From NCBI GenBank assembly GCA_944390795.1, contig CALXRI010000005.1, positions 1-64,000 on the forward strand: 64,000 bases of DNA, read 5' to 3'. Made by a program: the position numbers and the translations under genes. Positions 1-63,591 of this stretch are shown piece after piece. The notes beneath the pieces are model-generated. The model did not search any database. It was not told where the DNA came from and was given only the letters and a program-made list of their open reading frames with translations. Every line of letters starts with the position of its first letter. The first letter of the stretch is position 1. Origin of the DNA: an uncultured Victivallales bacterium. GTDB taxonomy: Bacteria; Verrucomicrobiota; Lentisphaeria; Victivallales; UBA1829.

Positions 1-97
1 CAAGCTGGTCGCCGCAGGCGAAATCCCCGATAACGCGTATGCCTGCATCGCATTATGCTTCGTGCAGGACTCTCAGTTCTGCCGCGGTCCAGCTGCG
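1..97 (-). repeat. 97-bp hairpin repeat, copy 1
   Basis: First of two complete head-to-tail copies; the start may be cut by the window edge. It is nearly identical to 98-194, and its reverse complement matches the elements at 27.8-28.07 kb. It contains three short inverted repeats, including a GCAGGACT-ctc-AGTTCTGC hairpin and a TAACGCG..CGCATTA palindrome. It lies downstream of the leftward dCMP deaminase gene. Small open frames crossing it follow the repeat and are not credible genes. Confidence 0.85.
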
Positions 98-194
98 CAA
101 GCTGGTCGCCGCAGGCGAAATCCCCGATAACGCGTATGCCTGCATCGCATTATGCTTCGTGCAGGACTCTCAGTCCTGCCGCGGTCCGGCTGCG
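98..194 (-). repeat. 97-bp hairpin repeat, copy 2
   Basis: Second tandem copy, differing from copy 1 at only a few positions. The hairpin GCAGGACT-ctc-AGTCCTGC at 161-179 is perfect here, where copy 1 carries one C-to-T change that would be a G-U pair in RNA. A second hairpin, CCAGCT-gcgca-AGCTGG, spans the junction at 89-105. Confidence 0.85.
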
Positions 195-243
195 CAGGCT
201 GGCCGCCGCAGACGGAATCCCCAATGAGCGCATGCTCTGCATC
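195..243 (-). repeat. hairpin repeat, partial copy 3
   Basis: Diverged, truncated third copy (CAGGCTGGCCGCCGCAGACG..). It decays just before the stop codon of the dCMP deaminase gene at 252, so the tandem array abuts the 3' end of that gene. Confidence 0.65.
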
Positions 244-251
244 AGGGCAGT

Positions 252-746
252 TTATTTTTCCGAACGCGGGGAACTCTCCTCCACAAGCGGGCGCAGTTTC
301 ACGCCGGCCTCGCGGAGAATGCGCTTGGATGTCTCGTCAATGGAATAGCGTTCCTTGTAAACCACCTCGCGGATCCCCGCGTTGATAATCATCTTCGCGC
401 AGAGCAGACAGGGGCTGAACGTCGTGTAAAGAATCGCATCCTTCACCGAGATGCCGTGATAGGCCGCCTGAACAATCGCGTTCTCCTCGCCGTGACAGCA
501 GAGACACTCCTCCAGAGCGGTTCCGGACGGCGCATCCGACGAACAGCGCGGACATCCTCCGTCACAGCAGTTTTTAATCCCGCGGGGCGTCCCGTTGTAA
601 CCCGTGGAAATAATCCGGAAGTCCTTGACGATCACCGCCGCGACCTGCCGCCGCGAACAGTTGCTCCGCAGCGCGACCACCTGCGCAATCTGCATGAAAT
701 AGGTGTCCCAGTCCGGACGGACCGGTTTCTGTTTTTCCCCTGCCAT
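252..746 (-). CDS. dCMP deaminase-family protein (ComEB-like)
   Basis: A 164-aa protein of the zinc-dependent cytidine/deoxycytidylate deaminase family. By family it converts dCMP to dUMP for dTMP synthesis in the cytosol. The HGEEN motif supplies the first zinc ligand and the proton-shuttling Glu, and PCLLC supplies the two Cys ligands. The N-terminal WDTYFMQIAQVVALRSNC.. stretch is typical of the family. An extra Cys-rich insertion (CCDGGCPRC) lies between strand 2 and the active site, as in many bacterial dCMP deaminases. The start at 746 is chosen because a GGAGG site sits about 8 nt upstream; an upstream ATG at 809 in the same frame lacks one. Confidence 0.93.
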   Translation of the reverse strand: MAGEKQKPVRPDWDTYFMQIAQVVALRSNCSRRQVAAVIVKDFRIISTGYNGTPRGIKNCCDGGCPRCSSDAPSGTALEECLCCHGEENAIVQAAYHGISVKDAILYTTFSPCLLCAKMIINAGIREVVYKERYSIDETSKRILREAGVKLRPLVEESSPRSEK

Positions 747-27780: not shown

Positions 27781-27820
27781 CCTCGAATGAACTATCATGG
27801 TGCAGAGTTAACGGCGGTTC

Positions 27821-27913
27821 GGGAATCCCGCCTCCGACAGCCAGCTTGCGCAGCTGGACCGCGGCAGGACCGAGAGGCCTGCACGAAGCGGTTTTTCCGA
27901 TGCGGGCATCGCA
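27821..27913 (+). repeat. hairpin repeat, diverged copy A
   Basis: Inverted-orientation relative of the repeat at 1-243: CCAGCTTGCGCAGCTGG, then GCAGGACC-gag-AGGCCTGC, then a CGATGC-gg-GCATCG palindrome. Sequence differs from the other copies, but each palindrome is largely kept. Confidence 0.75.
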
Positions 27914-27940
27914 CGATTCTCCTGATTTTTTTTAATAAAT

Positions 27941-28068
27941 TACCGCGATGCAAGCATGCGCGGTATTAGGGATTTCGCCTCCGGCGACCAGCTTGCGCAG
28001 CTGGACCGCGGCAGGACTGAGAGTCCTGCACGAAGCAATTTTTGGCGATGCAGTGCATCGCGGTATTA
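27941..28068 (+). repeat. hairpin repeat, copy B
   Basis: Well-preserved copy in the opposite orientation to 1-194. It starts with the palindrome TACCGCGATGC-aa-GCATGCGCGGTA (27941-27965), then CCAGCT-tgcgc-AGCTGG, then the perfect GCAGGACT-gag-AGTCCTGC, and ends with GCGATGCA-g-TGCATCGC at 28045-28061. With copy A and the terminator it fills the 477-nt gap 27674-28150, in which no gene is evident. Confidence 0.85.
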
Positions 28069-28150
28069 ACCTAAATTTTTTTGAATAAAAACCGTTTTTT
28101 CCCGGAAGCAGGGATTGCATTCCGGCTTTTCGGTATTACTTTATAATACC

Positions 28151-63441: not shown

Positions 63442-63591
63442 TGCGGTCCGGCGCCCTTGTTACGGAGAGGAAGATTTCGCGCTGTGCGCGACCGGCGGTT
63501 CGCCGCCGGACCGCGACAAGGGTCAAAGCTCCTTGACCCCGGGAAAAATGCGCCCGCATTTTTCCGTCTTTTCTGTAAGGGAAATACGGAA
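63442..63591 (+). other. hairpin-rich intergenic element
   Basis: A dense set of inverted repeats: GCGGTCCGGCG (63443-63453) with CGCCGGACCGC (63504-63514); CCCTTGT (63454-63460) with ACAAGGG (63516-63522), in crossing order; CCGGCGG-ttcg-CCGCCGG (63492-63509); GGGTCAA-agctcc-TTGACCC (63520-63539). The crossing pairs allow a pseudoknot or alternative folds. No Rfam-type element was recognised. Confidence 0.6.
63542..63565 (+). terminator. terminator-like hairpin
   Basis: GGAAAAATGC-gccc-GCATTTTTCC, a perfect 10-bp stem, followed by GTCTTTTCTG. It ends the hairpin-rich element. Confidence 0.5.

Follow-up and report, generated by a model that had tools for sequence, protein, structure and literature searches.

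Short dispersed repeats in a Victivallales genome as probable non-autonomous mobile elements with IS200/IS605-type ends

The repeat array at the start of the analysed window (64,000 nucleotides of a contig of an uncultured Victivallales bacterium) probably belongs to a family of non-autonomous mobile elements of about 150 bp, with IS200/IS605-type ends and guide-directed insertion. In this they would resemble palindrome-associated transposable elements (PATEs), ends-only derivatives of IS200/IS605 (PMC7290912, PMC3119063). By comparing sequences, we detected exact insertion without duplication, covariation of guide and target at both ends, copies arranged head to tail, and a right end whose stop codon is in use. 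All genomes are MAGs and the results are computational.

The repeat family and the array at the window start

The genome-wide count of copies proposed in the earlier note gave 50 places in the genome of the window (G000, a Victivallales MAG), and similar numbers were found in two sister species, G002 (MAG BRZ_DM__bin34) and G003 (MAG SI.B33.metabat-bins.122); the repeat is dispersed and not confined to one locus. The standard unit of about 150 bp lies immediately 3' of TTNATT and consists of a left end rich in A (CAAAAAAATTTAGGTTAATACC), the left hairpin GCGATGC-TCT-GCATCGC, a core of 65 nt (CTTCGTGCAGGACTCTCAGTCCTGCCGCGGTCCAGCTGCGCAAGCTGGTCGCCGGAGGCGAAATC) with three hairpins (H1 to H3), and a right hairpin (CCGCG(C)ATG...CATCGCGG) followed by TAATTTATT. 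A subterminal hairpin at each end is kept in about 30 copies per genome. Allowing up to three mismatches, we counted 29 left and 31 right ends in G000, 35 and 33 in G002, 5 and 29 in G003, where the left end has drifted, and almost none in G001.

The tandem 97-bp repeat described in the earlier note is real: positions 1-97 and 98-194 of the window are 98% identical, in register and spaced by 97 bp. The extent given there (1-243) does contain the repeat but stops short of the right end, as the third, diverged copy runs on to a terminal TTTATT (Table 1). The palindromes were found as well, including the hairpin said to tolerate a G-U pair, in which a single C-to-T change in GCAGGACT/AGTCCTGC replaces a G-C pair by G-T. 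With up to three mismatches, CAGGACTCTCAGTCCTG has 6 matches in the window against 0.10 expected. Position 1 of the window is also the first base of contig C5, the terminal 58 bases of contig C50 are identical to the window start, and both flanks of the array occur together in G002 (L118) and G003 (L169). The array therefore continues into C50, which holds its left part. It has at least three cores, a copy number that is a lower bound because the assembly break hides the true length. Several other contigs begin or finish within copies; copies break metagenome assemblies, and recognising them helps to close Victivallales genomes.

Table 1. Features of the repeat family in the window (positions are those of the window)
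Feature	Position	Strand	Remark
Tandem array, 97-bp period, three cores seen (first cut by contig start), degenerate right end	1-256	+	
3' part of core, remainder at end of contig C50	1-25	+	
Chimeric spacer hairpin, right-end 5' half fused to left-end 3' half at CCTGCATCGC	26-57	+	Compared with L118 of G002
65-nt core with hairpins H1, H2 and H3	58-122	+	
Chimeric spacer hairpin, second copy	123-154	+	
65-nt core, diverged copy	155-219	+	
Right end of array	220-256	+	Closes with TTTATT at 251-256
Complete young element, CAAAAAAA...TTTATT	27934-28083	-	150 bp
Target hexamer TTTATT at left-end flank	28084-28089	-	
Putative left guide region GGTTAATACC	28062-28071	-	Guide base A opposite target T
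Putative right guide region CCTAATACCGCG	27959-27970	-	Guide base A opposite T of terminal TTTATT
Older decayed element	27786-27933	-	Head to tail, directly after the young element

At the same locus there is a single core in G003. In G002 there are two, spaced by 146 bp and separated by a complete right hairpin and a complete left one. In the spacer of G000, only the 5' half of the right hairpin and the 3' half of the left one remain, joined at the common CCTGCATCGC. The loss amounts to 49 bp, and taking this from the 146-bp tandem yields the period of 97 bp (146 - 49 = 97). A deletion between the CCTGCATCGC repeats of neighbouring hairpins would have generated the array at 1-256; judged from these alignments, the 97-bp unit would be a product of array decay, neither the basic unit nor a separate type of repeat.

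Relatives of the core with other stem letters were detected beyond the genus, in one other genus of its family and in a second family of the same order. In a scan of named genome contigs, the matches listed were almost only from Victivallales and Lentisphaeria, and the proteobacterial matches of a pattern scan resembled chance. Three single copies in Butyricicoccus and Ruminococcus records (L136, L108 and L165) have the three-hairpin layout with different stems, and may reflect transfer, chance or shared function. A core shared across phyla is thus at most a possibility: the single copies occur in three clostridial genomes, yet in only 1 of 295 genomes of the order. We also observed a second core class (H1 CAAGGG..CCCTTG, H2 CCAGCGGCGAAACGCTGG) at 63474-63513 on the minus strand of the window, at L230:2860-3760 and at L224, located in composite arrays of about 410 bp, in which a core of class 1 and an inverted one of class 2 are separated by many other hairpins. 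Searches of phages, viruses and plasmids gave no match to the repeat, and spread on such carriers was rejected. A literature search on Victivallales repeats returned nothing specific.

Insertion sites and guide-target pairing

Filled and empty sites were compared between the sister species. At L206 and L210, a copy follows TTTATT in G000; in G002 the corresponding flanks enclose a single TTTATT and the element is missing. At L284, the copy in G002 follows TTCATT and ends in TTTATT, and the site is empty in G000 and G003, G000 having TTCATT alone. At L321, the copy in G003 follows ATGATT and ends in TTCATT, and the site is empty in G000 and G002, with ATGATT only. For both L284 and L321, two other species lack the element, and the filled and empty versions show that the left hexamer is that of the target and the right hexamer that of the element. 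Target-site duplication is ruled out by these two loci, where the right hexamer differs from the target; insertion is 3' of a specific short sequence without duplication (L284 and L321, together with L206 and L210). Taken alone, L206 could be a deletion between repeats because the remnant of an older copy comes next. Matches to the joined flanks were also obtained for L281, L274 and L312, at junctions too diverged for a clean reading of the target.

The putative left guide base, N', lies within T-N'-AT directly 5' of the hairpin. Among 77 non-tandem left ends, N' and the variable base of the target TTNATT form a Watson-Crick pair in 60 and a G-T pair in 7 (shuffled mean 27.9, maximum 43), and among 82 right ends the corresponding numbers are 61 and 15 (shuffled mean 37.4, maximum 55); the shuffles overstate significance and are not strict probabilities, as copies of a subfamily share descent. 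At the level of sequence, a guide 5' of the hairpin foot pairs with the target on the left and with the last bases of the element on the right. In G002, guide A stands at T targets in 11 copies, guide G at C in 11 and guide G at T (wobble) in 4. Left ends in tandem, where the left hexamer is the right end of the previous copy, match the guide in 5 of 11 cases. Guide A is paired with the empty sites TTTATT of L206 and L210, guide G with TTCATT of L284 and guide C with ATGATT of L321, so for each of the three guides there is an empty site that already bore the partner base, which we regard as independent support. It counts against the reading that just three guide-target pairs are canonical, short of a complete tetranucleotide. 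Laboratory work has retargeted IS608 by altering its guide (PMC5934647). The same type of rule appears to have run in nature here, with three guides, matching targets and empty sites in sister genomes, and the pairing code thus seems readable from evolution.

For 41 copies the neighbouring genes are known on both sides (genes called by a simple script): 16 lie between convergent, 23 between co-directional and 2 between divergent genes, compared with 4, 21 and 17 for element-free gaps of at least 150 bp. Some young copies follow the T-run of a terminator (L210, L214). The left target hexamers of L284 and L281 in G002 are close to codons of neighbouring genes, and TTCATT at L281 may correspond to a start codon read on the other strand (ATGAA). 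Copies show a weak preference in orientation with respect to local GC skew (33 of 47 among those scoring at least 100, p 0.008, with several subsets tried), absent in G000, and a replication-strand bias was set aside on these grounds. In G003, 14 of 16 copies have positive local GC skew in the orientation of the element, as insertion into the lagging-strand template would predict.

The right-end stop codon and the three-hairpin core

On the opposite strand, the TTNATT of the right end holds TAA or TGA. A convergent open frame adjoins 23 of 83 right ends, and in 18 of these 23 its stop codon is exactly that triplet, compared with 56 of 355 other TT[TC]ATT sites in the same loci. At L284, the strand of the gene reads GAA TGA in the empty and GAA TAA in the filled site, and the stop is kept. 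A minus-strand deaminase-like gene in the window ends in the same way on the right end of the array, where TTA at 252-254 is its stop codon (TAA). Because the right end restores the stop codon, an element may land at gene ends with little harm. It is conceivable, though we put it forward only tentatively, that the elements change target by single-base guide switches, have settled on stop codons as a safe harbour and carry a functional three-hairpin core; the safe harbour is proposed because the target (antisense TAA/TGA) and the right end both hold an in-frame stop.

The pairing of the core was counted in 254 distinct cores, sequences that share descent. Inner pairs of H3 are standard in 100 of 118 cases (shuffle maximum 76). 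H1 was identified in 184 cores, where its arms form 43 different pairs, and 24 of 254 shuffled controls also score; H2 reaches 335 of 366 at six pairs (shuffle maximum 316) and equals the shuffle maximum (284) at five, which says little. H1 is missing from 70 of the 254 cores, and in two such cores CCTGC folds onto a GCAGG further downstream instead. The three-hairpin core thus seems to keep its pairing while its letters change. The earlier view that pairing survives sequence variation is borne out by H3 and by the arm pairs of H1, though not for the 70 cores without H1.

Could the core be a structured RNA or terminator, kept by selection and spread passively by recombination? Its stems covary across genera, it occurs with other flanks, in other genera and in a second family, and copies lie downstream of genes. 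Such a reading could account for the core and not for the ends, and we consider it improbable: a given site may be filled, with exact ends, in one sister species and empty in another, a terminator already precedes some of the young copies (L210, L214), the 70 cores lack H1, and Rfam covariance models reported only a tRNA in the window at the gathering score, with no match for the repeat.

Candidate enzymes and known systems

Y1 transposases of the IS200/IS605 type bind hairpins, use a guide 5' of the hairpin foot and insert 3' of a tetra- or pentanucleotide without duplication (PMC5934647, PMC6006769, PMC7290912). In the mobile-element reading, a Y1 (HUH) TnpA acting in trans would bind the subterminal hairpins on one DNA strand. 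The guide triplet T-N'-A, 5' of the left hairpin, would pair with the target triplet T-N-A in TTNATT, a second guide 5' of the right hairpin would pair with the terminal TTNATT of the element itself, and the element would be inserted just 3' of TTNATT. The single-stranded nature of the intermediate, the role of TnpA and the identity of the helper are inferred.

No intact TnpA was found in G000, G002 and G003, which are incomplete MAGs. Only broken pieces of Y1 genes were detected in G000 and G002, and nothing convincing in G003 even at E values up to 10. The IS200 TnpA remnants at L078 (G000:C3:76606-76746) and L191 (G002:C35) are the only Y1 traces above the cut-off in these genomes. L078 adjoins an end hairpin of the CCACCGGC type; the remnant in G000 was dismissed as the direct helper since this hairpin is not GCGATGC. 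We likewise reject a long, autonomous version with these ends, as left- and right-end searches gave no pair enclosing a gene-sized gap. Intact TnpA genes with other hairpin arms were found in G012 and G001. In G012, from the same family, the IS200 TnpA matches NCBIfam NF033573 (E 3.9e-46), and its right end (GCATACC-hairpin-GGT-TTTGATT) shares the foot NATACC...GGT, with guide C opposite target G.

The earlier note had named REP/BIME elements or a transcribed RNA as parallels and suggested a search for a RAYT gene. A dispersed palindromic repeat is indeed present, with mosaic arrays and a preference for the 3' ends of genes, and REPs are structurally close to IS200 ends (PMC6006769). Mobilisation by a RAYT (TnpAREP) was nevertheless rejected and appears very unlikely: G000 contains neither a RAYT gene nor an intact Y1 transposase, only a truncated IS200 remnant, no RAYT gene was found in G002 or G003 and the Y1 matches there are IS200 remnants, while the relative G059 has 17 Y1 hits and yet no repeats. 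Moreover, the GTAG tag 5' of REP hairpins is absent from the consensus element and the listed ends, and the guide bases vary jointly with the target. A MITE moved by a DDE transposase via terminal inverted repeats has still less in its favour and is highly unlikely; TACCGCGATGC is indeed inverted near both ends, but it lies 20-odd bases inside the left end and not at the very ends, the target hexamer is fixed, and L284 and L321 have no target duplication.

A tree built from 92 copies clusters the young ones by species, including at loci that the species share (L207/L049, L211/L269, L209/L280), and joins the old ones locus by locus (L220/L299, L235/L290). The species-specific letters of the young copies suggest gene conversion between copies or repeated insertion into the same target. 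Plain tandem duplication with gene conversion and no transposition, which would fit this grouping and L206 alone, is scarcely credible. It is refuted for L210, L284 and L321, whose flanks are unique and whose empty sites are clean; at two of these loci the element is lacking in two further species.

Like IS608 and ISDra2 of the IS200/IS605 family, the elements have subterminal hairpins, a guide 5' of the foot and the target kept at the left flank, and insert 3' of a short fixed target without target-site duplication; they differ in having no internal tnpA or tnpB, a three-hairpin core inside, a target (TTNATT) with one variable base and a right end that nearly equals the target. With PATEs they share short, ends-only elements presumably moved by TnpA in trans (PMC7290912, PMC3119063), whereas here the copies number about 50, the guide has three variants within a single genus, the right end bears a stop codon, and there is a conserved core that, as far as seen, is not derived from tnpA or tnpB. 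With REP/BIME elements and TnpAREP (RAYT) they share extragenic palindromes, arrays and proximity to gene 3' ends, and differ in the missing RAYT gene and GTAG tag and in a guide that varies with the target. The resident Victivallales IS200 (G012:C38, G001:C2) have an A-tract before the left hairpin, as here, and in G012 the foot NATACC...GGT followed by TTTGATT with the same guide logic (C for target G). In contrast to the repeat, their arms are ACCGGC and not GCGATGC and they encode TnpA; they are at most candidate mobilisers of the repeat. The basic kind of element is thus already known, and what is new here is the natural switching of guides and the end that bears a stop codon.
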